A stretch of DNA of 46,116 nucleotides. It comes from a virus. The translations under genes and the position numbers were made by a program. The stretch is from the IMG/VR virus record IMGVR_UViG_3300030943_000039, positions 1 to 46,116 of that record. One strand, 5' to 3'. The notes under the pieces were generated by a model, which saw nothing but the letters and a program-made list of their open reading frames with translations, was not told the DNA's origin and did no database searches. This document shows, piece after piece, positions 9,822 to 24,721 of the stretch (its first letter is position 1; every line of letters starts with the position of its first letter).

Positions 9822-10378
9822 CCCCCCGCCCTGTCCGAGCCCAAATTACCGACCGAAACACTGACGCGGGGGACGACACGCCCATAATGACGCGCGGACA
9901 GGCCGAAGCGATCGGGCGCCTAAAATACTGGACCGGGCGCCCTTGCCGGCGCGGCCATTGGTCCTTTCGGTACGTCTCGACCGGCATGTGCATGCGGTGC
10001 AATCGCGAGCACGCCCGGGAGCACCGGGTTGCCCGCAACCAAGCCCGTGCGGCCCGCGCCGACGGCCTGACCGAGACGCGCACGACGCGTTTGCGGGTGG
10101 ACGAATGCGCCGCCTTTGACGCCTTTGTACTCGCCCTGGATCTGTCCCGGCCTGACCCCGCGCCCTTTGTCGTGCCGTCGCACATTGCCCGCCTGCCGCC
10201 CGGCGCCATCTCAGGGGCCCCCGACCCGGTCGTGCTAACCGGGGACCTTTCCGCGCAAGTCGCCGCGACCATTGCGCAACTGACGGGAGGCCACGAGCCA
10301 CCGCCCGCGCCACCGTGCGACGACGCCACACCCTACGACTTGCCCGAGGGCGTCTTGCTTCCCATCCGGCGCCCGTAG
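9818..10378 (+). CDS. Zinc-knuckle protein with Pro/Ala-rich C-terminal extension
   Basis: 186 residues from ATG 9818, set by ATGA overlap with the previous stop. Residues ~30-62 repeat the Cys-x2-Gly-His ... Cys-x2-Cys core (RPCRRGHWSFRYVSTGMCMRC), aligned with the previous protein. The stretch after it is Arg/Ala-rich and helical, and probably binds nucleic acid. The last ~100 residues are Pro/Ala/Asp-rich with little structure. No HNH catalytic triad is visible. It may be a DNA/RNA-binding regulator derived from an endonuclease VII-like ancestor. Confidence 0.75.
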   Translation: MTPRPVRAQITDRNTDAGDDTPIMTRGQAEAIGRLKYWTGRPCRRGHWSFRYVSTGMCMRCNREHAREHRVARNQARAARADGLTETRTTRLRVDECAAFDAFVLALDLSRPDPAPFVVPSHIARLPPGAISGAPDPVVLTGDLSAQVAATIAQLTGGHEPPPAPPCDDATPYDLPEGVLLPIRRP

Positions 10379-10414
10379 CGCTATCTTGTGACTGCCACCC
10401 TCTCGAGGTCCCTC

Positions 10415-12961
10415 ATGCTTCGCCGCACGCTCTTAGCCCCCGCCGCTCTTATCGCTCTTGCCGCCCCCGCGCTGGCGGGCAGCGGCTCGGATACCATCTA
10501 CCCGACGCAAGGCGCGGTGGTTTGCGCGCCGGCAACGGATGCGGGCTGTACGGCGCTCGGCTATCTCCAGGTCCGCAACGTCTCGGGCGCGATAGCCTGG
10601 TACAAATGGGCGTCGGGGAGTTGCACAGGGCTAACAGCTGCGCAGTGTTTCCGCCCCGCAACGGGCACTTACACGGGGGCGTTCAAGTGGTCCCCCCCAT
10701 TAGTTCTGGATACGCAAACGACGGCGGGGCTTCTGACCTACATGGCGACGGTCGCGGCCCCTGATATTGGCCCGTACACCACTTACGGCTATGCCACGGT
10801 CGGCGATATGGGCGGCGGATCATTTTTCTACGACTCGTCCGATACCACGACTGCTGACAACGGCGGCACGGTTCGGGTTGATGGCGCGGGGCATCGGTTC
10901 AAGTTGGTCGCAGGCGAACGCGTCTATATCTCAATGTTTGGTGTGCTGACGACCAACAGCGCATCGGCCAATTCTGTGGCATTCCAAAAGGCAGCGGATT
11001 GGCTGCGGGGAACGTGCTACGGCGCTTGGGGCGGTGCTTGGACGCGCGCGCTATGGGGTAAGGGAGGAACTTACAACTTCGACACTAGCATCAATTTCAC
11101 GGCTGACTGGAATGGCTACGCTACGGGCGCGGCGGCGGCAAATAAGTATTGCACTGGGATGACGGTCAAGGGTGAAGAGGGCGGCAACCTGCAGCTGCCA
11201 TTTGTTCTGAGCGGAAACCTAACGAGCGGCCACAAGGGGATGTTCCTCGACTTTAGCGGCCAAGCCAACACCACCCTGGACAACGTCTATGTGAAGGCGC
11301 TCGGCTACTCGACGGCGGGGGTTGCCAATCTTCGGGTTGCCGCTCCTGGTGGTGGTGTTGGCGGCGTTAATTTTGGGATGCACTTTGCCAATAACACTTT
11401 TGTCGATGGCTACACAAACCCCAATTTAGTTGTGGCAGTGGCGCTTCAAGACGCTGACCTGACAATATTTGATCCCACCTTTTCCGCTCGGGCCAGCCTG
11501 GACACTTCGATTGTAAACCGCTGGGGGTTCATGGGCCAGACGTTATACCATGCGCCGAACGGCGTAGGGATTGCGCAGGGCGGTACTTCGAGCACTATTA
11601 CGCTGGCGTCTACCGCCTCGTCAGTGAACGATTTTTACAAGGGTCTCCCGATTCATGTGTGCTCAGCTCACACCGCAAGCGGGGCATGCGACGGAACTAG
11701 GCAGCTGGGGTACATTGACAGCTATACGGGGTCCTCGCGGCAAGCGCATGTCGAAATACCGTGGCTATACTTCACGCCGACCAGCTCTTCGGCCTATTCG
11801 ATTGGCGCGGTGGGGTCGCAGTATCAGCATCTTGCCGGGCTGTCCTCTGCCAACGGAGCAACCCAGTACATCATCGGCGGCCAAAACCTTACTGGGCAAC
11901 TCATCTGGACTGGCGGGCTGATGCTTAACTTCACGGCGCCGTATATGGCGGGGTACGGAAGTGTCGCCGACAACATCGTGAAAGATGACGGCATTTTCTG
12001 CTCAACTGGTTCTCAGATGATTACCGGCACGGTGAATACGGAAGTGCAGGGCGCGAGCACGGGCGGGTCTTTCATCCGGTTGGTAAGCGGCGCGGTGACG
12101 GACGTAAACGTTACTGGGCGGGTCACCAATATCGGGTCGGCGCGGGCGGTATATTCCGCTGACGCAGGTGGCGCGTGCAGTACTTACTTCACCAACATCA
12201 ACGCCAAAACCGGCAGTATCGGGCCGACCCCGATGTTTTCCATGGCGGCCGGAACTGGGGTTCCGACGCAGTGGGCGGGCTCTGATGTGACGGCAACGGC
12301 TTTTGGGTCGATTGGGGACTTGAGCGCCACGGCGAAAATCCCCTACTGCGGTTATATGTCGGAAAACCAGGGCACGCTGCGCGATTCCGATATGCCGAGC
12401 TACTGCGAAACTTGGAGGTTCGGAAGCCTCGTAGGTGAAAACAAAACCGCCTTTACGAAAAATGTCTCCGGTCGCGTTACACCATCGTATCAGTACCTAA
12501 GCTATTTCGTCACCTGTAGCCAACTGACTGGCGACTCCGCTGCGCATGATGTCTGCACGTTTCCTATCCCAGGCGGCGTACTGCAAGCGTATGCGGGGGG
12601 TTCATACACCAACGGCTACAACACGCTTTCCATGCATTGCCACAGTTCATTCACAACTACTGGTGTTGTGGTTACCCTGAGACTGAACCAGGGCGGCTAC
12701 AGTATGCCATCTGACACGGTCACGCTGACCAGTACTGATATTTCTTGGGACGTCCATGTCTCCTCCTATCAACGGGCGGGCAACAGCGGCTTTATTTCCT
12801 GGGATTGGAAGATTTATTCTGGCAAGGACTTGCTCGCATCAGGAAAATCGGGCGTCGCCAATGGTATCGCCGTCGAGAATGCCTCTAGCCTGATACTCAG
12901 CGCGGCGTCGTCCACAACCCAGACCCCTGATCCGTGCTACGTGCAGAAGAACGGGAATTAG
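10415..12961 (+). CDS. Large secreted-type beta-helix protein, tailspike-like
   Basis: 848 residues from ATG 10415, which has GAGG 6 bases upstream; a GTG at 10388 is less likely because the signal peptide begins at 10415. The N-terminus is a textbook Sec signal (MLRRTLL, hydrophobic Ala/Leu core, APALA cleavage near residue 22). Residues ~100-190 have the linker pattern of phage pectate-lyase-fold spikes (GDMGGGSFFYDSSD, then GTVRVDG, then ERVYISMFGV). This is followed by a long Gly/Thr/Asn-rich right-handed beta-helix and a C-terminal beta-domain. Such proteins bind or depolymerise surface polysaccharide. It is odd in carrying an export signal and in lying on the early strand away from tail genes. 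Confidence 0.7.
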   Translation: MLRRTLLAPAALIALAAPALAGSGSDTIYPTQGAVVCAPATDAGCTALGYLQVRNVSGAIAWYKWASGSCTGLTAAQCFRPATGTYTGAFKWSPPLVLDTQTTAGLLTYMATVAAPDIGPYTTYGYATVGDMGGGSFFYDSSDTTTADNGGTVRVDGAGHRFKLVAGERVYISMFGVLTTNSASANSVAFQKAADWLRGTCYGAWGGAWTRALWGKGGTYNFDTSINFTADWNGYATGAAAANKYCTGMTVKGEEGGNLQLPFVLSGNLTSGHKGMFLDFSGQANTTLDNVYVKALGYSTAGVANLRVAAPGGGVGGVNFGMHFANNTFVDGYTNPNLVVAVALQDADLTIFDPTFSARASLDTSIVNRWGFMGQTLYHAPNGVGIAQGGTSSTITLASTASSVNDFYKGLPIHVCSAHTASGACDGTRQLGYIDSYTGSSRQAHVEIPWLYFTPTSSSAYSIGAVGSQYQHLAGLSSANGATQYIIGGQNLTGQLIWTGGLMLNFTAPYMAGYGSVADNIVKDDGIFCSTGSQMITGTVNTEVQGASTGGSFIRLVSGAVTDVNVTGRVTNIGSARAVYSADAGGACSTYFTNINAKTGSIGPTPMFSMAAGTGVPTQWAGSDVTATAFGSIGDLSATAKIPYCGYMSENQGTLRDSDMPSYCETWRFGSLVGENKTAFTKNVSGRVTPSYQYLSYFVTCSQLTGDSAAHDVCTFPIPGGVLQAYAGGSYTNGYNTLSMHCHSSFTTTGVVVTLRLNQGGYSMPSDTVTLTSTDISWDVHVSSYQRAGNSGFISWDWKIYSGKDLLASGKSGVANGIAVENASSLILSAASSTTQTPDPCYVQKNGN

Positions 12962-12972
12962 GCGGGCCGTTG

Positions 12973-12988
12973 TTGACCTAACCGTCAA
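12973..12988. promoter_or_regulatory. TTGAC-N6-GTCAA operator-like palindrome before helicase
   Basis: Spacer CTAACC. TTGACC plus 17 bases leads to TATTGG (12996-13001). A start site there would fall at about the ATG of the helicase (13007), giving a very short or leaderless transcript. Confidence 0.6.
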
Positions 12989-13006
12989 TTGCTGGTATTG
13001 GGCGGC

Positions 13007-15547
13007 ATGTCTCAACCAACGTTCCGCCCGTATCAGACCACCCTATCCGACGACATTGACTTGGCTTGGGCCGCAGGCGCGCGCAACGTGCTTGCCAAGC
13101 TCCCGTGCGGCGGCGGCAAAACCGTCATCATGGCCCACAAGGCCCGCACGTACCGCGGCGCCTCTATCTGCATTGCACACCGTCACCACCTTGTCGCCCA
13201 AATGTCGCTTGCGCTCGCCCGCAACGGCGTGCGCCACAGACTCATAGGCGCAACGGACCTTGCGCGGCTCATTGTCACGCAGCATGTAGAAAAGCTCGGG
13301 CGGTCTTTCTACGACCCGCAGGCATGGGTGGGTGTCGCCAGCGTCGACACGCTTGCCCGACGCGCGCCGGATGACGCCTGGTTTAAGCAAATCACCCTTT
13401 GGCAAACTGACGAATGCTTTCCAGCGGGGACGTTGGTTGACGGTCGGCCGATCGAAACCCTGCGAGTCGGTGACGTGGTCGCGTCGTTTGATGAACGATT
13501 CGGCGTCTTGCGCTCCCGCCGGATCGTTCGATTATTCAAAAACCCCGCGCCGCGGCACATGGTGCGGCTTTACACCCAAGCCCATCACGTATTAGAATGC
13601 ACCCCCAATCACCCGATTTTCACGCAACGCGGCTGGGTTGCCGCAGGGGGCCTAAATGCCGACGATAAAGTGCTTTATGTGCCCGAAGCCCGCGGACCTA
13701 AGCGGCTTTCGACAGGGGCAATACGAGAGGACCGGGCGGGCGTATTGCAGTCGAGAGTGTTCGACGGCCTACCGAGCGAGGCGGTCATCCGAAACGGCAA
13801 CCAAAACCAACCTCAAGTATGCGTCGGCGCGCATGAAACTAAACAACCCGATGCGCCACAAAAAATCGCGGGACAAGATGCGCAAAACGCTGTTGCGGAT
13901 TGGGCACCGACCGAGCGTCCAGGGCGGCAACGGGACGCCGCCACCCCCAGCGGAAGCGGCGCTTTTTGCGATCTTCGGGGGCATGGGCTTCGTGATGCAA
14001 TTTGCGATTCGGACGGGGAAACGCAAAGGCGACGGGAAGAAAATCCCGCACAGTTACAAAGTGGACTTGGCCAATCCGACGCTGCGGCTGGCGATCGAAG
14101 CGGACGGGGGCTCTCACGGAATGCGGGAGCGCAAGGAACAGGACCGGAAGAAAGAGGGGGTCTTAGGTGGATTGGGCTGGACCGTATTGAGGTTTACGAA
14201 CCTGGAAATTCTCAACGACCCGACGGCGGTTGTGGTGAGGGTTTTGTCTACAATCTCGAAATTGAAGACTTCCACACTTATGTCGCTGGCGGGATCGTAG
14301 TCCACAACTGCCATCATCTTTTGCGTAAAAATAAATGGGGTAAAGCCGTCGCACTTTTTCCTAACGCCCACGGGATAGGTTGGACCGCCACACCGGGGCG
14401 CGCGGACGGTTATGGCCTCGGGCGCCATGCGGACGGGGTTTTTGATGCGATGGTGTCCGGCCCGGGAATGCGGGAGCTTATCACTGCGGGGTACCTGACC
14501 GACTACAAGCTGCTTTGCCCGCCGTCCGACCTAAAGCTTGACGAGTCGGACCTTGGCGAGAGCGGGGAATTTAAGCAGGCCGCGGTATCCGCGGCAGTGC
14601 GCGGCTCGCACATTACCGGCGACGTGGTTTCCCACTATCTGCGGTACGCCGCCGGCAAGCTCGGCATGGTCTTTGCGGTCGACGTTGACCACGCGACGCA
14701 ACTCCTGGCCGGGTTTCAAGCCGCTGGGGTGCCCGCCGAAGTCATCACGCACCTAACGCACCCGACGGCGCGCGCGGCGGTCATGCGGCGATATGAGCGG
14801 CGCGAGGTACTTGTCGTTATCAACGTCGATCTATTTGGCGAGGGGACCGACTTCCCGGCCCTGGAGGTTGTGAGCCTCGCGCGGCCAACCGCCAGCTACC
14901 CACTTTACGAGCAGCAATTTTGTCGCGCGCTGCGGCTCCTGGAGGGTAAAGCGTATGGGCTTATCCTGGACCACGCGGGCAACACGATGCGCCATGGGGG
15001 CCCGCCAGACTGCCCGCGGCATTACAGCCTAGACCGGCGCGAGAGGCGCGGGCCGCACCTGCCGGCCGACGGCGTGCCGATGCGCGCTTGCACGGCCTGC
15101 ACGGCGCCCTATGCCCGCACGCGGCTGACGTGCCCCTATTGCGGCGCGGAGGCTCCCGAACCTGCCGGCCGCGCCTCGCCCGAGCAAGTCGAGGGGGACT
15201 TAGTGTTGCTGGACGGCGCGGCGCTGGCGGCTCTACGTGGCGAGGTCGCGCACATTGACGGCCCGGCGCGCGTGCCCGGGCACCTGGACGGCCCGGCGCG
15301 CATATCATGCGAGCGGCGCCACCTAGAGCGGCAGCAAGCCCAAGCGACCTTGCGCGCCACGATCGCGCTTTGGGGCGGCTGGCGGCGGCGTGAGGGCGAG
15401 GACGACCGGGAGGCGCAACGGCGCTTTTGGTTCCGGTTTGGCGTCGACGTGGCGACCGCTCAAACGCTGGGTGCGCGTGAGGCTGGGGAGCTTTGCAGTC
15501 GGGTCGCGGGGGACTTGTCGACGGCGGGCGTCGTCGCCGCTACTTAG
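13007..15547 (+). CDS. Superfamily II DNA helicase interrupted by an intein in its DECH box
   Basis: 846 codons from ATG 13007 (a TTG at 12989 overlaps the operator). The N-extein has a Q-motif-like start (FRPYQ), Walker A PCGGGKT at residues 33-39 and motif Ia-like sequence, and runs to TDE just before residue 137. Residues 137-434 are an intein. The C-extein resumes with CHHLL, restoring the DECH box, then motif III-like GWTATPGR, GEGTDFP, motif VI QFCRALR, and a zinc ribbon (CTACTAPY, CPYC). After splicing the helicase would be about 548 residues. It is related to phage replication/recombination helicases found near DUF2800/DUF2815/PolA modules. Without splicing the ATPase cannot work, because Walker B is split. 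Confidence 0.9.
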   Translation: MSQPTFRPYQTTLSDDIDLAWAAGARNVLAKLPCGGGKTVIMAHKARTYRGASICIAHRHHLVAQMSLALARNGVRHRLIGATDLARLIVTQHVEKLGRSFYDPQAWVGVASVDTLARRAPDDAWFKQITLWQTDECFPAGTLVDGRPIETLRVGDVVASFDERFGVLRSRRIVRLFKNPAPRHMVRLYTQAHHVLECTPNHPIFTQRGWVAAGGLNADDKVLYVPEARGPKRLSTGAIREDRAGVLQSRVFDGLPSEAVIRNGNQNQPQVCVGAHETKQPDAPQKIAGQDAQNAVADWAPTERPGRQRDAATPSGSGAFCDLRGHGLRDAICDSDGETQRRREENPAQLQSGLGQSDAAAGDRSGRGLSRNAGAQGTGPEERGGLRWIGLDRIEVYEPGNSQRPDGGCGEGFVYNLEIEDFHTYVAGGIVVHNCHHLLRKNKWGKAVALFPNAHGIGWTATPGRADGYGLGRHADGVFDAMVSGPGMRELITAGYLTDYKLLCPPSDLKLDESDLGESGEFKQAAVSAAVRGSHITGDVVSHYLRYAAGKLGMVFAVDVDHATQLLAGFQAAGVPAEVITHLTHPTARAAVMRRYERREVLVVINVDLFGEGTDFPALEVVSLARPTASYPLYEQQFCRALRLLEGKAYGLILDHAGNTMRHGGPPDCPRHYSLDRRERRGPHLPADGVPMRACTACTAPYARTRLTCPYCGAEAPEPAGRASPEQVEGDLVLLDGAALAALRGEVAHIDGPARVPGHLDGPARISCERRHLERQQAQATLRATIALWGGWRRREGEDDREAQRRFWFRFGVDVATAQTLGAREAGELCSRVAGDLSTAGVVAAT
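13415..14308 (+). other. Intein (298 aa) in the helicase DECH box
   Basis: Cys1 is codon 13415-13417 and the terminal His-Asn are codons 14303-14308; the +1 residue is Cys (14309). Block A is CFPAGTLVDGRPIETLRVGD. Block B is LECTPNHPIFTQRGWV with the Thr-x-x-His. Block F is GFVYNLEIEDFHTYVAGG and block G is IVVHN. All residues needed for class 1 splicing are present. The roughly 160 residues between B and F in this frame are Gln/Gly/Arg/Asp-rich, show no LAGLIDADG or HNH motif, and look like a non-selected reading of another gene (13656-14300). It excises itself and joins E and C of the helicase. Confidence 0.92.
13656..14300 (+). CDS. Vsr/EDxHD-type homing endonuclease nested out of frame inside the intein
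   Basis: 214 residues, in the +1 frame relative to the helicase, wholly within the intein coding region. ATG 13656 has AGGGGG at 13645-13650, 5 bases upstream. Domains in order: zinc finger (Cys6, Cys9, Cys31, Cys35 with AYCSREC); a NUMOD3-like DNA-binding helix (LNNPMRHKKSRDKMRKTL, 62-79); and a Vsr/PD-(D/E)xK nuclease with Glu100, SYKVDLANP (Asp137), AIEADGGSH (Glu148, Asp150, His154) and Asp163, then GWTVLRFTNLEI. The Glu-Asp-x-His-Asp constellation matches the EDxHD homing endonucleases known from phage introns and split inteins. The stop lies 8 bases before the intein end. Its likely target is the uninterrupted DECH-box site in an intein-free helicase gene. Confidence 0.88.
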   Translation: MPTIKCFMCPKPADLSGFRQGQYERTGRAYCSRECSTAYRARRSSETATKTNLKYASARMKLNNPMRHKKSRDKMRKTLLRIGHRPSVQGGNGTPPPPAEAALFAIFGGMGFVMQFAIRTGKRKGDGKKIPHSYKVDLANPTLRLAIEADGGSHGMRERKEQDRKKEGVLGGLGWTVLRFTNLEILNDPTAVVVRVLSTISKLKTSTLMSLAGS

Positions 15548-15552
15548 CGCCG

Positions 15553-15747
15553 CTAATCGGTATCGGGGGGTAAGTCCGTCGGTTGCACGGGCATTTCCGC
15601 GTGTTCTTCGCCGGTGCCACCGCATCCGGCGCATAAAGTACGCCGGCCCAACCCTTCGCCCGTGCCGCTGCAATCGGGGCAGGTTTTGCCGGTCCAACCG
15701 TAGAGCTTGCCGCCCTTGGTATATTCGCCCGCTTTTAATTGATACAT
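15553..15747 (-). CDS. Small DnaJ-type zinc-finger protein (64 aa)
   Basis: 64 residues from ATG 15747, supported by GAAGGAG 7 bases upstream. It contains the paired motif CPDCSGTGEG ... CAGCGGTGEE, i.e. two CxxCxGxG half-sites like the DnaJ zinc finger. The C-terminus is acidic and Pro-rich. It is the last gene of the gcrA cassette and converges on the helicase gene 5 bases away with no visible terminator between them. Probably a metal-binding accessory protein; partner unknown. Confidence 0.75.
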   Translation of the reverse strand: MYQLKAGEYTKGGKLYGWTGKTCPDCSGTGEGLGRRTLCAGCGGTGEEHAEMPVQPTDLPPDTD

Positions 15748-15760
15748 GCCCGTGCTCCTT

Positions 15761-16024
15761 CTAAGTGTGCGCCACGCGCGCATTGGCCGATCGGTCCCTT
15801 GCGGGCGTCGTCGCGGCGTGAGCCTTAAGGTACGACGCGCGATGTATCCAATGGCAAAAATGCAGGTAGGTGTTGCTGCCATCGGCGCGGAAGTGCGTCC
15901 ACCCGGCGGCGCGCGCCTCGGTCCACGCCTTCGCGGTGTTGTGGGTGGCCGTGGGATGCGTCGCGCGGCAGTCGGCGCAATCGCACGCAAAGACGGTGCC
16001 CGAGACGGTGCGGCGCTTAGTCAT
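15761..16024 (-). CDS. Small Cys/His-containing phage protein (87 aa)
   Basis: 87 residues from ATG 16024, starting by ATGA overlap with the tiny membrane protein. FACDCADCRATHPTATH near the N-terminus and AAGWTHFRADGSNTYLHFCHW later give a Cys/His set that could bind one zinc ion. This layout is common in small phage proteins of unknown role. The C-terminus is basic and Ala/Thr-rich. Part of the minus-strand gcrA cassette. Confidence 0.7.
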   Translation of the reverse strand: MTKRRTVSGTVFACDCADCRATHPTATHNTAKAWTEARAAGWTHFRADGSNTYLHFCHWIHRASYLKAHAATTPARDRSANARVAHT

Positions 16025-16107
16025 AACCACACCCAAAGGGCCGCACCCACCGCCAACCAAAAAAGCGCGCAAAGCCCCGTCGCGATGGTAGCTCCATAGT
16101 TGCTCAT
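16021..16107 (-). CDS. Tiny membrane protein (28 aa)
   Basis: 28 residues: MSNYGATIATG followed by one hydrophobic helix ending in WVWL. It is supported by GAGGGA 6 bases upstream of ATG 16107 and by ATGA overlaps on both sides (with gcrA and with the 87-aa gene), a pattern that chance frames rarely show. Probably a single-pass inner-membrane peptide; role unknown. Confidence 0.6.
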   Translation of the reverse strand: MSNYGATIATGLCALFWLAVGAALWVWL

Positions 16108-16550
16108 TTTTTGTCCCTCGGTTGGTACGCGCGGGCGGCGTGCGCCTCGCAATATGGATAGTTTTGGTGGGTGGCGTGGCCACAATAGCAGAAGTCCGGT
16201 GTAAGCGGGTCGCCGATCGGCCAGCGGCATTGATTGGCCTGGAGGGTCTCAAGGGTGGTGTGTGCGCCCGTAACCGACGACACGGGCGGTTCGGCTTCTT
16301 GCTGGCGGAGTATAGCGGGGCGGGGCTTGCGGGAGATACCGCCAGCGACTCGCGGCGCTCGGTTTTGTGAGGATCCCGGCTGTTGCGCGAGAGTGGGCGC
16401 CCCGTCGGTCCCTTTGAGGCGGTGAATTTTGCCGATTATGGCGCTACGGGAGGTATCCCCGAGCGCGTGAGCAATTTGCAAGGCGGACAACCCTTCGGCG
16501 GCCAGCACTTTAAGCTGCTTTAATTTTTCATCGGTCCAAACGTCAGCCAT
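16104..16550 (-). CDS. gcrA: GcrA-family cell-cycle regulator homologue
   Basis: 148 residues from ATG 16550. The N-terminus WTDEKLKQLKVLAAEGLSA, followed by IAHALGDTSRSAIIGKIHRL, is the GcrA DNA-binding helix-turn-helix. The C-terminus has QCRWPIGDPLTPDFCYCGH and YCEAHAARAYQP, matching the conserved GcrA tail that contacts the sigma70 subunit. The linker is Pro/Gln-rich. Host GcrA activates transcription at GANTC-methylated promoters in alphaproteobacteria, so a phage copy could redirect host or phage promoters. It is first in a four-gene minus-strand cassette and faces the operator at 16570-16585, shared with the divergent early gene 16605. Confidence 0.9.
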   Translation of the reverse strand: MADVWTDEKLKQLKVLAAEGLSALQIAHALGDTSRSAIIGKIHRLKGTDGAPTLAQQPGSSQNRAPRVAGGISRKPRPAILRQQEAEPPVSSVTGAHTTLETLQANQCRWPIGDPLTPDFCYCGHATHQNYPYCEAHAARAYQPRDKK

Positions 16551-16569
16551 GGGGCTTCTATAAACGCTA

Positions 16570-16585
16570 TTGACACTCCGGTCAA
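16570..16585. promoter_or_regulatory. TTGAC-N6-GTCAA operator-like palindrome between gcrA and gene 16605
   Basis: Spacer ACTCCG. On the plus strand TTGACA-N17-GATAAC (16570-16598) forms a promoter whose start would fall at about ATG 16605. On the minus strand it sits 20 bases before the gcrA ATG. A bound factor would control both directions. Confidence 0.65.
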
Positions 16586-16604
16586 GACGGGAGATAACCG
16601 GGGC

Positions 16605-16805
16605 ATGGACTTTGACGCCTACGCCGCTGCTCTTGCCCGCGCCGATTGGTTTTACCAAATGAGCGACGACCCTGCCGCCTATGCCGCGGGGTGCTGGGAA
16701 ATAGCGGCGTTGCGAGCGTTATGGGGTGCGTCGGAATTGCACGGGGTGCTATTCGACTGCACGCAGGAATGGGCTAACAGAGTCATGAGGGAACACAATG
16801 CGTAA
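16605..16805 (+). CDS. Small acidic phage protein (66 aa)
   Basis: 66 residues, Ala/Trp-rich and acidic, probably all-helical, with no recognised motif. It is the first gene of a rightward run of overlapping small genes, directly behind the divergent operator. The next gene starts 8 bases before its stop. GGGAG lies 11 bases upstream, so initiation may be weak or leaderless. Function unknown. Confidence 0.65.
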   Translation: MDFDAYAAALARADWFYQMSDDPAAYAAGCWEIAALRALWGASELHGVLFDCTQEWANRVMREHNA

Positions 16806-16980
16806 GACAATGTGGGCTATCAAGCGCCAATGTGGGGCCTACCAGCAATGCCCTAGCGGGTCAGGCGCGCCCTGGCTTTTCAGGACTCGGCATCTTGCTA
16901 ATTGGGAGATTCAATACGGCCGAGCCTCCGCTTTTGGTAAGGCCGTCCCTGTTATTGTCACGATTGAGTTGCGCAAATGA
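16798..16980 (+). CDS. Small basic phage protein (60 aa)
   Basis: 60 residues, basic, with two Cys (QCGAYQQC) and a C-terminal beta-like stretch (PVIVTIELRK). It overlaps the previous gene by 8 bases and the next by ATGA, supporting real translation. No family recognised. Confidence 0.6.
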   Translation: MRKTMWAIKRQCGAYQQCPSGSGAPWLFRTRHLANWEIQYGRASAFGKAVPVIVTIELRK

Positions 16981-17297
16981 GAGTCTATATCGCCGGGCCG
17001 ATCAAAGGTAACGACTCAGCGCGAGAGTGTTTCGCGTTGGCGGCCAAAATGCTTAGGGACCTAGGCAAGTATGAAGTCGTCAACCCTTTTGAATTGAACG
17101 TCTCGGCTATAGAAGCCGACGCGGGGTATGCGGCGTACATGCGCGCGGACCTTAAGGCTCTTGTGGGTTGCGACGCAATTCACCTTTTGCGCGGGTGGGA
17201 AAATAGCGCCGGGGCGCGCCTGGAGTTCCAAGTCGCGCAAATGTGCGGACTTTTGGTTACGTACCAATGCGCTTTGGGCTTGAGCCTACATCCATGA
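16977..17297 (+). CDS. DUF4406 / nucleoside 2-deoxyribosyltransferase-like protein
   Basis: 106 residues. It starts with the Rossmann-like MRVYIAGPIKGN typical of DUF4406 and nucleoside deoxyribosyltransferases. It continues with YEVVNPFELN, a metal/substrate region YMRADLKALVGCDAIHLLRGWENSAGA, and LEFQVAQMCGL with the family's acidic residue. These enzymes cleave or transfer deoxyribose on nucleotides; in phages they may remodel nucleotide pools. It starts by ATGA overlap, and the next gene does so too. Confidence 0.8.
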   Translation: MRVYIAGPIKGNDSARECFALAAKMLRDLGKYEVVNPFELNVSAIEADAGYAAYMRADLKALVGCDAIHLLRGWENSAGARLEFQVAQMCGLLVTYQCALGLSLHP

Positions 17298-17665
17298 CCC
17301 GCGAGTCGCCCCTCTATCTCGCATTGCGCGAAGAGGCCGCCCGTAAAGGGATGCGGCTTTGGCGCAATAACTGCGGCGCGTTTCAAGACGCGACGGGCCG
17401 GTGGGTGCGCTACGGCCTCGCCAACGACTCCAAGGTTTTGAGTGCGCACATTAAGAGCGGGGACTTGATCGGTATCCGGCCGGTGCTCATTCTGCCCGAG
17501 CACGTCGGGACGGTCATTGGCCAATTTATCAGCCGGGAGTGCAAGCCTGCCGAGTGGCACTTTTCACCAAAGGATGATCGCGAGGCGGCACAAGAGCAGT
17601 GGAACATGCTTGTGCGGGCCCTTGGTGGCGACGCTCAATTTGCAACACGAGAGGGGACGCTATGA
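17294..17665 (+). CDS. VRR-NUC domain nuclease
   Basis: 123 residues from ATG 17294, fixed by ATGA overlap with the DUF4406 stop. It contains GMRLWRNNCGAFQD, KSGDLIGIRPVLI with an acidic metal ligand, FISRECKPAEW (the Glu-x-Lys pair) and QEQWNMLVRALGGDA, the layout of phage VRR-NUC (PD-(D/E)xK) nucleases. This is about the usual length for a stand-alone VRR-NUC. Such nucleases act on branched DNA and often accompany SNF2-type helicases and PolA in phage replication modules, as here. Confidence 0.82.
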   Translation: MTRESPLYLALREEAARKGMRLWRNNCGAFQDATGRWVRYGLANDSKVLSAHIKSGDLIGIRPVLILPEHVGTVIGQFISRECKPAEWHFSPKDDREAAQEQWNMLVRALGGDAQFATREGTL

Positions 17666-17943
17666 CCCCCGCCGCAGCTGCCCACTTTGCGCAACGCCTG
17701 GCCGCCCCGCTCGTACTTGAGCCCGGCGCGGTGTGTCGCCTGCGTGGCGGCCGCATAGCGGTTATTGACCGCGGCTTGCGGTATCGCCACGTCGACGCCC
17801 CCGGCGGCGCGCAATATGACGGTTGGGGCGGCCGGGCGCTCTTTGAAGACGGCGGCGACGTGCTGGCCTTTTGGTGCGCGGACGGCGCCGCAAGCGTCGA
17901 CTATAACCCTGACCCCTACGACCTAATGGAGCGGATAGCGTGA
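17662..17943 (+). CDS. Hypothetical phage protein (93 aa)
   Basis: 93 residues from ATG 17662, ATGA-coupled to the VRR-NUC gene. The middle is beta-rich (GAVCRLRGGRIAVIDRGLRY) and later has AFWCADGAASVDYNPDPYDL. No catalytic motif is recognised. The SH3- or beta-barrel-like composition suggests a small binding protein; this is only a guess. Confidence 0.6.
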   Translation: MTPAAAAHFAQRLAAPLVLEPGAVCRLRGGRIAVIDRGLRYRHVDAPGGAQYDGWGGRALFEDGGDVLAFWCADGAASVDYNPDPYDLMERIA

Positions 17944-18305
17944 CGTATCAGGCTAGAGTGTGGCGTTGGGTGGTCCAATGCTTCGGTACGGGCTTCGCGT
18001 GCGACCCGATTGAACGCGCGCACCGCTTTCTTGAAGAGTCGCTAGAGCGGGCGCAAGCCGTGGGGTGTACCGAAGAGGACGCCGTAAAGCTCGTAGCATA
18101 CGTCTACGGGCGCCCGGTCGGCGTGGTCTTCCAAGAAGTTGGCGGCGTCTCGGTCACGTTGGTCGCTCTTTGTGCGGGGCTTGAAGTGGACGGGGACGAC
18201 GCCGCCGAAACAGAGCTTGCGCGGTGCTGGCAAAAATTTGACCGCATCCGCGAAAAGAATGCCGCGAAAGCGCATGGCATGCCGCTCCCGGGGTCGGTCA
18301 CATGA
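17940..18305 (+). CDS. MazG-like nucleotide pyrophosphohydrolase-type protein
   Basis: 121 residues from GTG 17940 (GTGA overlap with the previous stop). RAHRFLEESLERAQAVGC and VFQEVGGVSVTLVALC resemble the two acidic helices of all-alpha NTP pyrophosphohydrolases (MazG/phage family). The first has the Glu-Glu-x-x-Glu set, and a C-terminal helix RCWQKFDRIREKNAAK follows. Such enzymes clear aberrant or alarmone nucleotides. The second metal-binding Glu-x-x-Asp is not obvious, so activity is uncertain. Confidence 0.72.
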   Translation: MTYQARVWRWVVQCFGTGFACDPIERAHRFLEESLERAQAVGCTEEDAVKLVAYVYGRPVGVVFQEVGGVSVTLVALCAGLEVDGDDAAETELARCWQKFDRIREKNAAKAHGMPLPGSVT

Positions 18306-18526
18306 GCACCTTTGTCGTCACCCGAGATTACGCCGGCCGTCCGTGTCACGCACTTTGCGCGGAGCCGCCCCGCTTGACCAAAGAGGCGCGGCGCGAGGTC
18401 GTTGTCGCGCTGACGTTGAGCCCGATCGGCGAGCGGCTGACGTTCCGCGAGTTGATCGCCTGCTATGAGGCGGATGGCTTCCGCGGAGCATTGACCGCGC
18501 GGTGCGTGGTGGAGCGTTTGGTTTAG
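18302..18526 (+). CDS. Hypothetical small phage protein (74 aa)
   Basis: 74 residues, ATGA-coupled to the MazG-like gene. It is a mixed alpha/beta sequence with RLTKEARREVVVALTLSP and TFRELIACYEADGFRGAL, possibly a small winged-helix-like protein. No reliable family recognised. Confidence 0.55.
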   Translation: MSTFVVTRDYAGRPCHALCAEPPRLTKEARREVVVALTLSPIGERLTFRELIACYEADGFRGALTARCVVERLV

Positions 18527-18538
18527 AGGAGAGACGAT

Positions 18539-18640
18539 ATGTCTAAAATCACCGCGCGGTTTGTTGGGGCATGGTTTGGACTTTGGGCGGTATTGGGCCC
18601 GGTGTCTTTCGGCTTGCTTCTCTGGGTCTTAACCCGTTAG
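18539..18640 (+). CDS. Tiny membrane protein (33 aa)
   Basis: 33 residues: MSKITARFVGAWFG then one hydrophobic helix ending in LLLWVLTR. Supported by a strong purine-rich site (AGAGGAGAG) 5 bases upstream of ATG 18539. It lies between two genes of the early run. Single-pass inner-membrane peptide; role unknown. Confidence 0.55.
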   Translation: MSKITARFVGAWFGLWAVLGPVSFGLLLWVLTR

Positions 18641-18656
18641 GGAGCGCGCTGCTATA

Positions 18657-19004
18657 ATTTGCCCAACATGCCTTGGTGCCGGTGCGCAGCTTGCGGGTAA
18701 CGCCGCGGGCGCGACGTGCGGCAAATGCGGCGGGTCCGGCGCGTTGCCCGACGCGGGGCTTGTCGTGGGCGGCACATACCGTAGCCGGGGTGGCGACGAA
18801 GCGGTAGTGCTCGGCGCGCGTGAGGACACTATCCGTAGCGCGCTGTCCGGCCTCGACATACCCTGCCCGACGTACTACGGCGTGCTGGGGACCGGGCGCG
18901 TCACAACTTGGGAACCCGACGGTTTTTGCCGTTGGGATAGACAACCCACCCCGCACGACCTACTATTGACCAAACTGTCAGACTCGCAAGAGGTTGCCCG
19001 ATGA
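18657..19004 (+). CDS. DnaJ-type zinc-finger protein with apparent non-standard start
   Basis: The first ordinary start in this frame is TTG 18744, but in-frame sequence upstream encodes ICPTCLGAG ... TCGKCGGSG, a complete CxxC/CxxCxGxG zinc finger. It is continuous with GLVVGGTYRSRGGDEAVV downstream. The frame is closed by TAA at 18630, and the only candidates between are ATA 18654 and ATT 18657, with AGGGAG at 18639-18644 at suitable distance. I set the start at ATT 18657 (115 residues); translation from a rare start, or a base-call error, is possible. The finger resembles that of the 15553-15747 protein. The next gene is ATGA-coupled. Confidence 0.6.
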   Translation: MCPTCLGAGAQLAGNAAGATCGKCGGSGALPDAGLVVGGTYRSRGGDEAVVLGAREDTIRSALSGLDIPCPTYYGVLGTGRVTTWEPDGFCRWDRQPTPHDLLLTKLSDSQEVAR

Positions 19005-19216
19005 CCCCGCCGCCCGACCCGCCTCGCCCCGCACCAAGACGCCCCGTTGCCGCCACACAGTGCGAAATTGCGCTATTACGGCTTAAGGCTTTCGAGCTGC
19101 TTAACGGGTATGACCCCCATTCTAGGGCGGGAGCACCCACAACATTTAATCTCGAAGGTCGTAAAGACGCGGCGCTTGCTTTGGCCGAATGGGCTCTTAA
19201 GGATAGCGACCGATGA
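19001..19216 (+). CDS. Hypothetical small phage protein (71 aa)
   Basis: 71 residues, ATGA-coupled on both sides. The Pro/Arg-rich N-terminus is followed by a helical region (CEIALLRLKAFELLNGYDP) and a C-terminal helix (GRKDAALALAEWALKD). No family recognised. Confidence 0.6.
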   Translation: MTPPPDPPRPAPRRPVAATQCEIALLRLKAFELLNGYDPHSRAGAPTTFNLEGRKDAALALAEWALKDSDR

Positions 19217-19521
19217 CTCGCCCCCGCCTACTCGCCACCGATCGTAAGGCCCAAATCTTGGAGTCAGCCCTGCTTTATGCGGTCGCCAACAATTTCGCGC
19301 AAATCACCTTTGCGGCGGTTGGTCGCTTGAGCGGCTGCGGCCGTACGACGGTTATCTATCACTTCCATTCTATCGTGCGACTGCGGTCCGCTGTGATGCG
19401 ACTCGCCGTCAAACGCGGTGTGTTCAAGGTCGTTGCGGAAGGGCTTGTCGCGCGGCACAGTGCGGCCCTGGCCGCGCCGGACGATCTTAAAGCGCGGGCG
19501 TTGGCGTCGCTTCGGTCATAG
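19213..19521 (+). CDS. TetR-type helix-turn-helix regulator (DNA-binding domain only)
   Basis: 102 residues. RKAQILESALLYAVANNF, then ITFAAVGRLSGCGRTTVIYH and FHSIVRLRSAVMRLAV, match the N-terminal TetR HTH: helix 1, the recognition helix with Gly-Cys-Gly-Arg-Thr-Thr, and the conserved Tyr-His-Phe. A normal TetR is about 200 residues; here the ligand-binding domain is lacking. As the only recognisable HTH of this kind besides GcrA and in the early operon, it is a candidate binder of the TTGAC-N6-GTCAA palindromes. That link is inference. Confidence 0.75.
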   Translation: MTRPRLLATDRKAQILESALLYAVANNFAQITFAAVGRLSGCGRTTVIYHFHSIVRLRSAVMRLAVKRGVFKVVAEGLVARHSAALAAPDDLKARALASLRS

Positions 19522-19544
19522 CATCTTGCGGGGATACCTGGGGT

Positions 19545-21974
19545 ATGTGGCAACTGCCGCCCGCATTGTCTGCGTTCGGGGCTTATAGGCGATTTATTGT
19601 CTATCAAGCCGTGCCGAGCACGACGCGCGCCGGCAAAACCGACAAATTCCCAATCGACTACCGCACGGGGCGCAAGGGCGACTCGCAGGACCCCGCAATT
19701 TGGCTGACGTGGCAAGAGGCCGCGGCATATGCCGAAGTGTTTGGCCCCGCGTTTGGCGTCGGCTTTGTCTTCACGCGCGAGGTCGGGCTATTTTTCATAG
19801 ACCTTGACAATTGCCTACGCGACCCGGCGCACCGTGAGCTGGGATGGAATGATACGGCCCTAGCATTGCTTGCGCAGTTTACCGGCGCAGCGGTTGAAGT
19901 GTCGCTATCGGGCGAGGGGCTCCATATTTTTGGCCGCGGCCATGCCCCCGAGCCGCGGCGTAAGAAGTCTGCGGACCCTGCTTTCGCTTTTGATCTTTAT
20001 ACGGAGGGCCGCTTTGTTGCACTCACGGGTTGGAATGCTCTAGGCGACGCGGCAACCGACCACACCGCCGCGCTCACTGATATAACCGCACGCTATCTGC
20101 ATCGTGACGCGGCCGCGATTGTAGAGGGTGACGGCCCATGCGCTGAATGGAACGGCCCGGCCGACGATGTGGAGTTACTGCGACGTGCGCTCAAGTCCCG
20201 CGGCGTCGGTGCGGTCTTTGGTGGCAAAGCCTCCTTTGCGGACCTTTGGGATAATAACGTGCCCGCGCTTGCCGCGGCTTTCCCTGACGATCATGGCCGC
20301 GCGGACTATGACGAATCGCGCGCCGACGCCGCCCTTGCCCAACACCTAGCTTTTTGGACGGGCAAGGATTGTGAGCGCATTGCCCGGCTTATGCTGCAAT
20401 CCCAGCTCGTACGTGAAAAATGGGAACGGCCAGACTACCTGCCCCGCACGATCGAAGCCGCCGTAGCGCGGCAGGTCGACGTGCTGCACGACAAGCCCAC
20501 TGCGTTGCCGGCGGTCGTACCCCCACCCCCGTCGACCCCGGCCGTAGCGCCCCCCAAGGTTGTGAGCGGCGACCGGTACTTGTCCGCCCCGGCGCAAATG
20601 AACCTTTTTAAGGGTTGCGTCTATGTGTCGGCACTCCACCGCATCCTTGTGGAAGGCGGCTATCTCCTAAAGCCGGATCAATTCCGCGCCGTCTTTGGCG
20701 GCTACTCTTTCCCGATGGACCCCGCCAACGAGCGGGTCGTACGGGATGCATACGAAGCCTTTACTCAGTCACAATGCTTTAGGTTCCCACAAGCCGACTC
20801 GGTTTGCTTCCGCCCCGAGCTGCCGGCGGGGGTCATCATCCAAGAGGGCGGCGCGCGCCTCGCAAATGTGTGGTGGCCGATCGACACGCCGCAAGCTGAC
20901 GGCGACGCCGGGCCGTTCCTGCGGCACATGGAAAAGCTCTTTCCGATTGACAGCGACCGCGCCGCAATTCTCGCTTACATGGCCGCGCTCGTGCAAAACC
21001 CCGGGCGCAAATTCCAATGGGCGCCGGTCATCATCGGCGCGGAAGGCAACGGCAAGACGCTACTTGCGACGGCGCTTACGCATGCGGTCGGGGAGCGCTA
21101 CAGTCACACGCCAAATACAAAAGACCTAGGCGACAACGGCCTTAAATTCACCGGATGGTTGGCAAGCAAGCTCTTGGTGGTGTTTGAAGAGATTTACACC
21201 GCGGAGCGTCGCGAGGTCCTGGAGGGCCTTAAGCCCCTCGTGACCAACTTACGGGTGGAAATCCAGGGCAAAGGGCAAGACCAAGTCACGGGCGATAACC
21301 GCGCCAACCTCATATTTTTTAGCAACCATAAGGACGCGGTGCCCTCGCACCCCGACGCGCGGCGCTATGCGATTTTTTACACCGCGCAGCAAAACGCGGA
21401 GGATATGGACCGCGACGGATTGACCGGGGGCTACTTCCCCGACCTTTGGGACTGGTTCGAAGGGCGCAACGCCTATGCGGGCGGCCCGTCCGGCAAGGCG
21501 ATCGTCAACGGATACTTGCGGTCCTACGCGATACCCGACGCACTCAACCCCGCTACGCAATGCCAGCGCGCGCCCGCCACGTCTAGCACTGCCGAGGCCG
21601 TGCGCCTGTCGCTCGGAACGATCGAACAAGAGGTACTAGAGGCCGTGGCGCAAGAGACGCCCGGATTTGCCGGCGGGTTTATCAGTTCCCTTGCGATGAC
21701 AAAGCTAGTCGAACGCCTCAAATTTGAGCGCCGCATGCCGCCGCGCCGTCGCCATGAGCTGCTAATCGGGCTTGGATACGAGCCGCACCCGGCATTGCCT
21801 GACGGCCGGGTCAACACGGTCGTTATGCCGGATGTGGGCAGGCCGCGGCTTTACGTCAAAAAAGGGTCGTTGCTCTTAAATTTAACGTCAGGGGCCACGG
21901 TGCAAGAAGCTTACGAGCGCGCGCAAACCAAGACTGTGACGCGCGGCGCGGCTTTTATTTCCCCGGCCTCTTGA
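19545..21974 (+). CDS. Primase-helicase (PrimPol-like N-domain, DUF5906/SF3-type C-domain)
   Basis: 809 residues. The N-terminal archaeo-eukaryotic primase/PrimPol-like domain has FFIDLDNC (DxD at residues 86-88), SLSGEGLHIFGRG (about 121-132) and FDLYTEGRFVALTG. A linker helical domain follows, then a Pro-rich hinge near residue 325. The C-terminal ATPase has Walker A GAEGNGKT (about 498-505), Walker B LLVVFEEI and sensor-like NLIFFSNHKDAVP. It should prime and unwind DNA at the phage origin. The start ATG is 23 bases after the TetR-like gene. An operator-like palindrome overlaps the stop codon. Confidence 0.9.
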   Translation: MWQLPPALSAFGAYRRFIVYQAVPSTTRAGKTDKFPIDYRTGRKGDSQDPAIWLTWQEAAAYAEVFGPAFGVGFVFTREVGLFFIDLDNCLRDPAHRELGWNDTALALLAQFTGAAVEVSLSGEGLHIFGRGHAPEPRRKKSADPAFAFDLYTEGRFVALTGWNALGDAATDHTAALTDITARYLHRDAAAIVEGDGPCAEWNGPADDVELLRRALKSRGVGAVFGGKASFADLWDNNVPALAAAFPDDHGRADYDESRADAALAQHLAFWTGKDCERIARLMLQSQLVREKWERPDYLPRTIEAAVARQVDVLHDKPTALPAVVPPPPSTPAVAPPKVVSGDRYLSAPAQMNLFKGCVYVSALHRILVEGGYLLKPDQFRAVFGGYSFPMDPANERVVRDAYEAFTQSQCFRFPQADSVCFRPELPAGVIIQEGGARLANVWWPIDTPQADGDAGPFLRHMEKLFPIDSDRAAILAYMAALVQNPGRKFQWAPVIIGAEGNGKTLLATALTHAVGERYSHTPNTKDLGDNGLKFTGWLASKLLVVFEEIYTAERREVLEGLKPLVTNLRVEIQGKGQDQVTGDNRANLIFFSNHKDAVPSHPDARRYAIFYTAQQNAEDMDRDGLTGGYFPDLWDWFEGRNAYAGGPSGKAIVNGYLRSYAIPDALNPATQCQRAPATSSTAEAVRLSLGTIEQEVLEAVAQETPGFAGGFISSLAMTKLVERLKFERRMPPRRRHELLIGLGYEPHPALPDGRVNTVVMPDVGRPRLYVKKGSLLLNLTSGATVQEAYERAQTKTVTRGAAFISPAS

Positions 21975-21986
21975 CGCTTCGGTCAA
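21971..21986. promoter_or_regulatory. TTGAC-N6-GTCAA operator-like palindrome
   Basis: Spacer GCTTCG. It overlaps the primase stop codon and lies 13 bases before ATG 22000. 18 bases (21971-21988) are identical to the minus strand of 6100-6117, which argues for selection. Confidence 0.6.
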
Positions 21987-21999
21987 TAGGGTGCTAAAA

Positions 22000-22188
22000 A
22001 TGCTTACGCTCTTAAAAAGGACCGCCGTCGTGCTCCATTTCCGCCCGCTTACAAAAGTTGTTGCCGCGCTGCGTTGGCGCCGCCAGCCGCTTCTGGTTCA
22101 TGTGGACGACTCGGGGATGATTATCAACGTCGGCCCCGCCGAAGGATATGCAACGCGGCGCGACCTACGCGCCTGGAGGAACAGGTAA
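22000..22188 (+). CDS. Small basic phage protein (62 aa)
   Basis: 62 residues from ATG 22000 (a GTG at 21991 is the alternative), with AGGG a few bases upstream. It has a basic N-terminus and a short hydrophobic stretch, then RQPLLVHVDDSGMIINVGP and a basic tail. The next gene begins inside its stop (TAATG). No family recognised. Confidence 0.6.
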   Translation: MLTLLKRTAVVLHFRPLTKVVAALRWRRQPLLVHVDDSGMIINVGPAEGYATRRDLRAWRNR

Positions 22189-22370
22189 TGGGACCCTGGG
22201 TTACGTACACTTGCGAAGGCGGCCGGTATTGGCGGGTTATCCGGCGAAATCCTATATGGGTTGGCGGCATTGAAGTGCTTCGCACCCACACCGGTCGCGC
22301 CCGTTGGTTTATGACATACGAGGCCGCTAGAAAGGCCGCCCGTAAAGCAAACGCAAAGGCCAAACCATGA
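22188..22370 (+). CDS. Small basic phage protein (60 aa)
   Basis: 60 residues from ATG 22188, TAATG-coupled. It is an aromatic-rich beta-like N-terminus (WVTYTCEGGRYWRVIRR) with a Lys/Ala-rich helical C-terminus, suggestive of nucleic-acid binding. No family recognised. Confidence 0.6.
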   Translation: MGPWVTYTCEGGRYWRVIRRNPIWVGGIEVLRTHTGRARWFMTYEAARKAARKANAKAKP

Positions 22371-22525
22371 CCCGCACCGACCGCAGTTTGACGCCCGAGC
22401 AAGAAGCCGACTTTTTTGCCGGTCGTCCGGTGCCGCCACTACGTCGTCGCAATAGCGGGTACTTTTGGCCCTTGTTCTTTTGGGCGCTGGCGGTCGCGCT
22501 ATACGCACATGTCCGCGCTTTTTAA
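22367..22525 (+). CDS. Small membrane protein (52 aa)
   Basis: 52 residues from ATG 22367, ATGA-coupled to the previous gene. The N-terminus is charged (LTPEQEADFFAGRPVPPL) with an Arg cluster. One hydrophobic helix follows (FWPLFFWALAVALYAHV). Single-pass membrane protein with the N-terminus probably cytoplasmic; role unknown. Confidence 0.65.
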   Translation: MTRTDRSLTPEQEADFFAGRPVPPLRRRNSGYFWPLFFWALAVALYAHVRAF

Positions 22526-22574
22526 TTGGTGCCGCCGCACCTGGCGCGCCGCAACCTCGGGAGAATGCAAGCCT

Positions 22575-23345
22575 ATGCCCTCTATCACGATCACACTGCC
22601 CCTGGACCCGAGCGGTTCGGACCTACGCAAGGCGCGCGAGTTGCTCGCCTTCTTGCGCTCACTCAGTCAAGACCCGTCGGCGCGCTCGGCCAGTACCGCG
22701 GACGTTGACGATGATGACGGCGAGGATGCCCCGGCCGTCGCGGGCTTTGCGCCGCCGGTTGCGTCGGTCAACGCCCACGCCAGCGCGGCGCTGCACGAGG
22801 CTCTTGCCGTGTCCGCCTCGCCGGTCGTAATGCCGCCCGCGGCGGACAATGGCGCAGTCATGGGTGCCGTTGACTCCACCGGCCTGCCCTGGGATGCGCG
22901 CATTCACGCCAGCAACCGCAGCACCAATGCCGACGGCTCGTGGCGCCGCAAGCGCAACCTGGACGACGCGACGTACGCCGCCGTCGTTGCCGAGCTGCGC
23001 GGCGCCAAGACCGTGTCGCCCCCCGCCCCGATGGTCGCGGCTACTCTCGCGCCACCTCCGCCGCCCCCGGTCCCGGTTGCCCCGCCAGCGCCCCCGCCGC
23101 CCGCCGCGTCCGGCAAGTCAAAGTTTGTGGTCTTTATGGAGTCGTACGTGCAGCCCGGCCTTGTCGCGGGCAAATTTAAGCGCGAGCAACTCAACGAGGC
23201 GGCGGTCGCGGTCGGCCTGCAAAACCTCGTGGGCCTCAGTATCCGGCCCGATCTTGTGCCCGCCGCGACGACCTACCTTGACGCCATTGTTGGCGGTCAA
23301 GACGCCGCGACGGCCGCCGTCCTCGCGCAATCCATGATCGGTTAA
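22575..23345 (+). CDS. Conserved phage replication-module protein with PWDARIHAS motif
   Basis: 256 residues from ATG 22575; an upstream ATG 22509 would overlap the membrane protein and add unlikely sequence. The N-terminus ITITLPLDPSG is beta-like. The middle has GLPWDARIHASNRSTNADG and WRRKRNLDDATYAAVVAELR, a motif pair seen in proteins next to DUF2800/DUF2815 in many phages. A Pro-rich linker precedes a C-terminal helical domain (VVFMESYVQPGLVAGKFKRE, GLQNLVGLSIRPDLVP). Probably DNA-metabolism related by context; biochemical role unknown. Confidence 0.7.
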   Translation: MPSITITLPLDPSGSDLRKARELLAFLRSLSQDPSARSASTADVDDDDGEDAPAVAGFAPPVASVNAHASAALHEALAVSASPVVMPPAADNGAVMGAVDSTGLPWDARIHASNRSTNADGSWRRKRNLDDATYAAVVAELRGAKTVSPPAPMVAATLAPPPPPPVPVAPPAPPPPAASGKSKFVVFMESYVQPGLVAGKFKREQLNEAAVAVGLQNLVGLSIRPDLVPAATTYLDAIVGGQDAATAAVLAQSMIG

Positions 23346-23349
23346 GCCT

Positions 23350-24711: not shown

Positions 24712-24721
24712 GCGCATTCCC

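Follow-up and report, generated by a model that had tools for sequence, protein, structure and literature searches.

A phage gcrA cassette faces an early gene across a recurring palindrome, a candidate operator of a small TetR-like protein

Repressor sites that are repeated along a phage genome are known from the operators of lambda and the stoperators of mycobacteriophage L5. The phage described here resembles both in carrying many copies of one site, here a proposed regulator site, over its genome, but its sites are symmetric and lie on -35 boxes, the candidate regulator is TetR-like, and the Klebsiella members of its lineage are called lytic. There is a further likeness to the JD001-like Klebsiella phages (Jedunavirus), where a small TetR-like gene stands beside a homologous primase and TTGAC-N6-GTCAA occurs at promoters, as in the window (i.e. 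the whole stretch of DNA analysed, a complete IMG/VR virus record of 46,116 bases). The Jedunavirus regulators are 32–34% identical to that of the window, and gcrA is not annotated in JD001. In the accessible portion of the open-licence literature we found no published palindrome, TetR operator, or promoter study on these phages; of two Jedunavirus papers searched for such terms, one has none (PMC11633184) and the other has only the annotation "transcriptional regulator" (PMC12518310).

The accessible literature describes GcrA as a protein that binds the sigma2 region of the sigma70 polymerase and favours open complexes (reviewed in PMC7403470), and reports a scan of alphaproteobacterial phages for GcrA sites that gave no positional asymmetry (PMC9437464). 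Phage copies are already published: the phiCbK paper of 2012 describes gp222 as GcrA and suggests a possible effect on the replicative state of the host (PMC3556154), and GcrA is listed for cyanophage Pam5 (PMC9382816). Phage GcrA is hence not new. In the same portion of the literature we found no work on what controls it, and the gcrA gene of the window is tied to a definite proposed operator and a candidate regulator. With gp222 and its relatives (Dolichocephalovirinae) the window protein shares a phage-borne GcrA and a serine at the residue-36 column, but identity to gp222 is about 30% across the greater part of the sequence, and gp222 occupies a separate place in the tree. The phiCbK group are large phages, and the phiCbK record, unlike the window, is without TTGAC-N6-GTCAA. 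The GcrA of Caulobacter crescentus (PDB 7ye1, 5yix, and 5yiu) has the same two domains in the same order and the same conserved Cys and His residues in the sigma-binding part, whereas the window protein is shorter, has S36 for N and A17 for W, and is borne by a phage.

The window belongs to a contractile-tailed phage, as its matches to tail sheath, baseplate, and tape-measure proteins indicate. Five records (L001, L009, L024, L111, and L131) come from a single contig that does not differ from the window in the parts compared, and they were left out of the relatives. One independent relative, L010, has aligned DNA stretches that are 76–89% identical to the window and a GcrA that is 62% identical; its contig stops short of the position expected for the TetR-like gene. 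Positions 10001–25000 of the window have no near DNA match in the phage collection. The spread of the GcrA family suggests that the host is an alphaproteobacterium. An assignment of the host by GcrA phylogeny was dropped, the nearest cellular copy having 95/88 support and a long branch.

The open reading frame (ORF) at 16104–16550(-) encodes 148 aa with a DNA-binding part (residues ~1–50), a linker, and a sigma-binding part (~101–148). It matches PF07750 (E = 7.1e-35; 121.1 bits against a curated cut-off of 26.9) at essentially full length, residues 5–147 aligning to positions 3–150 of the 155-position profile. Full-length GcrA of known structure (7ye1) is matched at E = 5.4e-23, and the sigma-binding piece (5yix) and the DNA-binding piece (5yiu) are each matched separately. 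The family match is thus far beyond chance, and the first-pass annotation of this ORF as a GcrA homologue holds. PF07750 is also matched above cut-off in a control genome, that of the archaeon Sulfolobus acidocaldarius.

The ORF map also bears out that gcrA heads a four-gene minus-strand cassette (16104–16550, 16021–16107, 15761–16024, and 15553–15747), which converges with the helicase ORF 12989–15547(+) and diverges from 16605–16805(+). The ORF at 16021–16107(-) encodes a 28-aa hydrophobic peptide, its ATG overlapping the gcrA stop; a longer frame, 16021–16230, gave no match in a family search, and the equivalent position in L010 is occupied by a hydrophobic ORF of 45 aa. Next comes an 87-aa Cys-containing protein (15761–16024, -) with 76% identity to its L010 counterpart over the first 80 codons and a dN/dS of 0.29, and then a 64-aa ORF with CxxCxGxG-type motifs (15553–15747, -). 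L010 has the first three cassette ORFs in unchanged order, and the fourth is missing. The early ORF that faces gcrA (16605–16805, +; 66 aa) is 83% identical in L010, with a dN/dS of 0.24. Family searches with the 87-aa, 64-aa, and 66-aa proteins returned no match.

The neighbouring helicase (13007–15547) carries a 298-aa intein at 13415–14308(+) in its DEAH/DECH box, with splicing-domain matches that are below the curated cut-offs; in the L010 helicase the site is empty and reads DEAHH. Inside the intein, in the +1 frame, a 214-aa ORF (13656–14300, +) matches a DUF559 nuclease (47.6 bits against a cut-off of 20.6) and may be a homing endonuclease read out of frame. The closest parallel in the accessible texts is the ShiLan element, which hides an out-of-frame HNH nuclease but is not itself an intein (PMC11855218), and a scan of viral sequences returned only the twin contig of the window.

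Between the start codons of gcrA and 16605 lie 54 bases that hold a 16-bp palindrome, TTGACACTCCGGTCAA (16570–16585), whose arms form the -35 boxes of two predicted promoters. The rightward one (16570–16598, +) reads TTGACA, 17 nt, GATAAC (16593–16598), 6 nt, and the ATG of 16605; the leftward gcrA promoter (16557–16585, -) reads TTGACC (16585–16580), 17 nt, TATAGA (16562–16557), 6 nt, and ATG. Both -10 boxes match at four of six positions, as do 4.5% of random places, and a stricter promoter scanner listed neither promoter. L010 has both spacings unchanged and TATATA as its leftward -10 box. Counted on the alignment, 6 of the 54 intergenic positions differ between the window and L010, none of them among the 16 of the palindrome, compared with 48% of the synonymous sites of gcrA. 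Because only 6 nt separate each -10 box from its ATG, there is no room for a leader, and the mRNAs would be leaderless in both directions. With the -35 boxes 4 bp apart, simultaneous occupancy of both is hardly possible.

The first-pass annotation placed a single palindrome between the two genes, but TTGAC-N6-GTCAA occurs six times exactly in the window against 0.11 expected. With up to one mismatch there are 12 places (0.95 expected; maximum 4 in 100 shuffles), and among 5-mer inverted repeats with gaps of 0–12 the pattern ranks first both by count and by z (17.8; best of 12 shuffles, 10.5). Apart from 16570, exact copies lie at 6102–6117(-) with a 4/6 match to -10 for the leftward arm, at 7224–7239(+) with 4/6 for the rightward arm, at 7401–7416 where neither side exceeds 2/6, at 12973–12988(+) before the helicase ATG at 13007 with 3/6 only, and at 21971–21986(+) by the primase end with a rightward 4/6. 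Two one-mismatch sites were examined as well: 28323–28338(+), after the DNA polymerase gene, has a 4/6 match on both sides, and 18966–18981, 35 nt before ORF 19001–19216, has no good -10. In total, 5 of the 8 sites examined have a -10 box of at least four matches on at least one side (the exceptions are 7401, 12973, and 18966); a -10 on both sides occurs at 16570, and at 28323 too if the altered arm is counted as a -35. Three exact copies occur in the L010 record; two of them are the gcrA site and the helicase site, the latter identical to that of the window.

A candidate reader of the palindrome is encoded at 19213–19521(+), upstream of the primase: a small helix-turn-helix protein of 102 aa. 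Related proteins are encoded in 71 phage records, of which Klebsiella phages make up 48, and several are annotated TetR. A profile of ten proteins (the window's and nine relatives) matches solved TetR-family repressors, with a best E of 1.3e-12, and nine of the ten aligned proteins match TetR_N (PF00440). The window's protein is the exception, with no Pfam match even at E = 1 and a best phmmer hit of 0.076 (to a TetR protein); its predicted model, built from the single sequence, has a pLDDT of 59.9 and was not used for fold searches. This weak family match and poor model count against the protein as the reader. The large C-terminal ligand-binding domain is missing (102 aa in total, against at least 170 aa in the matched TetR-family chains), and for this reason we call the protein TetR-like only. 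Also counted against it is the position of the sites in the window, where only the imperfect copy at 18966 lies nearby, before the small ORF that precedes the TetR-like gene.

Searches of 25 phage records reveal that the exact palindrome is present in six (JD001, JustaPhage, BUCT_49532, PEAT2, LAPP1, and AAM22; 3–9 copies each) and absent from 19, while a control with the pattern written backwards is found once each in two records. The recorded hosts of the palindrome-bearing phages are Klebsiella, Pectobacterium, Pantoea, and Acinetobacter. A copy stands 58 nt ahead of the annotated start of the TetR-like gene in JD001, JustaPhage, and BUCT_49532; the distance is likewise 58 nt in LAPP1, where an unnamed ORF occupies the equivalent place before the primase, and in AAM22 the palindrome overlaps the annotated start of the TetR-like gene. 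An unbiased scan for palindromes returned other sequences in Scuro (TGACA-N4-TGTCA, 5 copies) and PY6 (GTAGC-N8-GCTAC, 5 copies). Strong palindromes (z = 17.8–36.8, well above shuffles) are present in 9 of the 16 genomes with a TetR-like protein, six of the nine being one related group; the other seven lack one, which counts against the TetR-like reading. Nine of these 16 positives, besides the window, had built the TetR profile, so that their detection is by construction, and five primase relatives meant as controls (SppYZU01, LAPP1, StenoB2, PEAT2, and BUCT_49532) all encode the protein and were counted as positive. None of the nine genomes without the protein reaches z = 14, and two of them (13.4 and 13.2) exceed their own six shuffles. 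The contrast, 9 of 16 against 0 of 9, speaks for the TetR-like reading, with the reservation that the nine belong to other lineages. The scan covered 20,000 of 25,458 bases in one genome (G004) and 39,991 of 41,969 in another (G005).

A search with the primase recovered 69 viral loci, one being the twin contig of the window; of the other 68, 61 encode a TetR-like protein. None of the 68 has GcrA within the span covered, up to 9 kb on each side, which suggests that the cassette is an accessory of this branch; a copy beyond that span would have escaped, and contig ends truncate many of the loci. Across the 61 loci (957 kb; 13,312 combinations), the most widespread inverted repeats are TGACG-N4-CGTCA, with 81 copies in 32 loci, and TTGAC-N6-GTCAA, which is present in 31 loci. 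A site of either kind is present in 43 of the 61, and the 18 loci without one again count against the TetR-like reading; near-copies (L135/L136, L146/L154/L180, L160/L161/L175, L166/L167/L197/L199, L169/L176, and L182/L183) inflate these locus counts. Counted in favour of that reading is the placement of the sites: in 25 of the 61 loci one falls no more than 400 nt ahead of the TetR-like gene, against 2.83 expected, and 15 of these sites lie at 56–60 nt, distances that depend on start codons picked by a simple rule. The 56–60 nt offset recurs before clearly different TetR-like proteins.

Among the seven loci without the protein, one (L186) has a single exact palindrome and another (L195) has TAACA-N5-TGTTA four times (z = 17.7), perhaps the operator of another regulator; both loci are counted against the TetR-like reading. 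Elsewhere in the same lineage, L137 and L139 carry TTCGC-N3-GCGAA 8 and 9 times, respectively.

One symmetric site repeated at promoters is thus seen in the window, in JD001, and in the viral loci, and we propose, with moderate confidence, that the palindrome is an operator of the TetR-like protein, which would also regulate its own gene. This reading is based on the symmetry of the site, on its presence at mostly one-way promoters in phages whose hosts are unrelated, and on its position ahead of a helix-turn-helix protein gene. The foremost alternative has no repressor at all: the palindrome would be back-to-back -35 boxes, i.e. a plain bidirectional promoter for gcrA and 16605. TTGAC is the -35 consensus itself, and both arms at 16570 have a 4/6 -10 box at 17 nt, as such a promoter would. 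However, only 16570 among the six exact window sites has a two-sided -10. In JD001, 9 of 12 sites are intergenic in a genome whose annotation leaves 11.4% between genes, and 11 of the 12 sit 17–83 bp upstream of an annotated start, which counts towards the operator reading. Only three of the 12 have a start no more than 100 bp away in either direction, and the palindrome is kept anyway. Moreover, TTGAC is enriched at a gap of 6 only, with 61 copies in the 61 loci against 1.63 expected and 0–2 at every other gap from 0 to 12. We consider a plain bidirectional promoter unlikely.

Somewhat less probable still is that a host factor, rather than the phage TetR-like protein, reads the palindrome. 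We see no covariation between recognition helix and operator: the helices vary widely and the half-site is unchanged, which counts for a host reader and against the TetR-like protein, and some genomes with the TetR-like protein are without the palindrome. By contrast, the same palindrome is present in phages recorded from four host genera, and it is placed repeatedly just upstream of the TetR-like gene, both of which argue against a host protein and leave the phage protein as our preferred reader.

For the GcrA protein itself, we compared residues with 29 cellular copies from 31 loci (L080–L110), the best-scoring of a family search that gave a match in 48 of 76 genomes of one class; L110 (a split match) and L098 (no clean two-domain ORF) were left out. 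Of the 32 columns conserved in at least 80% of the 29 copies, the window protein keeps 26. The first-pass annotation held that both signature regions are intact, which is true of the sigma-binding part, where 13 of 14 conserved columns are kept, including every conserved Cys and His, but not fully of the DNA-binding part, where 13 of 18 are kept despite the match to 5yiu. Among the losses, residue 36 is N in 28 of the 29 cellular copies and S in the window, and residue 17 is W in 26 of 29 and A in the window. Serine at residue 36 is common to the window, L010, DMCA, phiCbK, and CcrRogue, while JY42 has N, Bajun (aligned via its second repeat) has R, and five environmental viral copies (L011–L015) have N when inspected by eye. 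In cellular GcrA this N adjoins the predicted recognition helix. The S-bearing copies fall in different parts of the tree, and a convergent change of DNA preference in phage GcrA is possible.

The uneven conservation relative to cellular copies would suit a phage GcrA that has lost DNA selection and acts as a sigma70-binding decoy or anti-host factor. Between the window and L010, however, constraint on the DNA-binding part is no weaker than on the sigma-binding part (dN/dS 0.29 against 0.40; 0.41 for the whole gene), and a decoy seems as improbable to us as a host reader of the palindrome. The same ratios indicate that gcrA is under purifying selection and is not decaying. Given the full-length family match, the conserved sigma-binding part, and the dN/dS of 0.41, the phage GcrA most likely works with the host RNA polymerase.

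The targets of this GcrA are less clear-cut, and we favour host promoters, possibly with an altered DNA preference. A take-over of host GANTC promoters is less certain because DNA-binding residues have changed. It had also been suggested that GcrA times the phage's own promoters through GANTC, a notion that finds no backing at the palindromic promoters: none of the six exact sites has a GANTC within the first 40 nt from either -35, and the two one-mismatch sites examined gave one, at 18966. The window as a whole is not enriched in GANTC: it has 95 occurrences, whereas dinucleotide shuffles give 129 ± 11 and a higher-order estimate gives 116. A cluster of seven sites at 16780–17426 was discarded as nonsignificant, as a fraction of 0.118 of random placements reach seven in 650 bp; two of the seven are kept in L010, as judged by eye. 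No methyltransferase family was matched among the subset of ORFs whose proteins were scanned. One ORF, 41449–41982(-), has a DPPY motif, which DNA adenine methyltransferases also carry, and no match in Pfam or PHROGs.

Of the 50,697 records in the phage collection, 30 match the window GcrA; 27 of these are Caulobacter phages, and in 28 the match spans 80% or more of the protein. A scan of genome contigs returned only two distant cellular copies. The GcrA phylogeny that had been called for, with phage copies included, covers 40 copies. Its 11 phage rows are dispersed over the tree, with five label changes of which at least three are forced by supported branches; several long branches leave its details unsure. 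The copies of the window and L010 form a fully supported pair, beside which stands a cellular copy (95/88). Uptake of gcrA by phages probably happened repeatedly. Brevundimonas phage Bajun (L006) has two PF07750 matches, with two DNA-binding repeats followed by a sigma-binding part. The GcrA of Synechococcus phage Ssp-JY42 (L007, a cyanobacterial record) groups with a cellular copy of the sampled class and a viral contig, and the recorded host of this phage may merit a check.

What can be read directly is a GcrA-family protein, a 54-bp intergenic region, and a 16-bp palindrome on both -35 boxes that recurs at promoters. Under the explanation we put forward, this is an accessory gcrA cassette under a palindromic operator that a TetR-like repressor reads, an account that we regard, taken whole, as an even call. 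The phage TetR-like protein would bind the palindrome as a dimer, cover both -35 boxes, and so silence gcrA and 16605 together; in many relatives it would control its own gene. When the repressor is absent, the host sigma70 polymerase would fire one promoter or the other. GcrA, once made, would bind sigma2 of that polymerase and promote open complexes at chosen promoters, most likely those of the host.

Since the arms are both -35 boxes, one occupant would shut off both genes, and the relation between gcrA and 16605 would be co-regulation, perhaps with mutual exclusion of polymerases, and not a choice between two programmes. The switch-like divergent cassette of the first-pass annotation is not supported, given that the palindrome is genome-wide and lineage-wide and lies on the -35 boxes of both genes: opposing regulators with separable operators are not what we find. 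Divergent overlapping promoters can exclude each other, but with a single palindrome over both -35 boxes and no regulator match for the 16605 product, it is very unlikely that gcrA and the rightward early genes form a two-state switch.

For the lineage as a whole, a picture that we hold tentatively, and below even confidence, is that across a wide primase lineage a half-size TetR-like protein reads palindromes over -35 boxes and represses itself, and that one branch added a captured, re-specified GcrA to this genome-wide circuit. The Klebsiella members with the palindrome set are called lytic and are proposed for therapy, according to titles and abstracts. If a TetR-like repressor runs these therapy candidates, the way in which their early genes are controlled is not understood, and the trigger of that control would be of interest. 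And if the wider picture is true, release of the repressor in the gcrA branch would also retune the host RNA polymerase.
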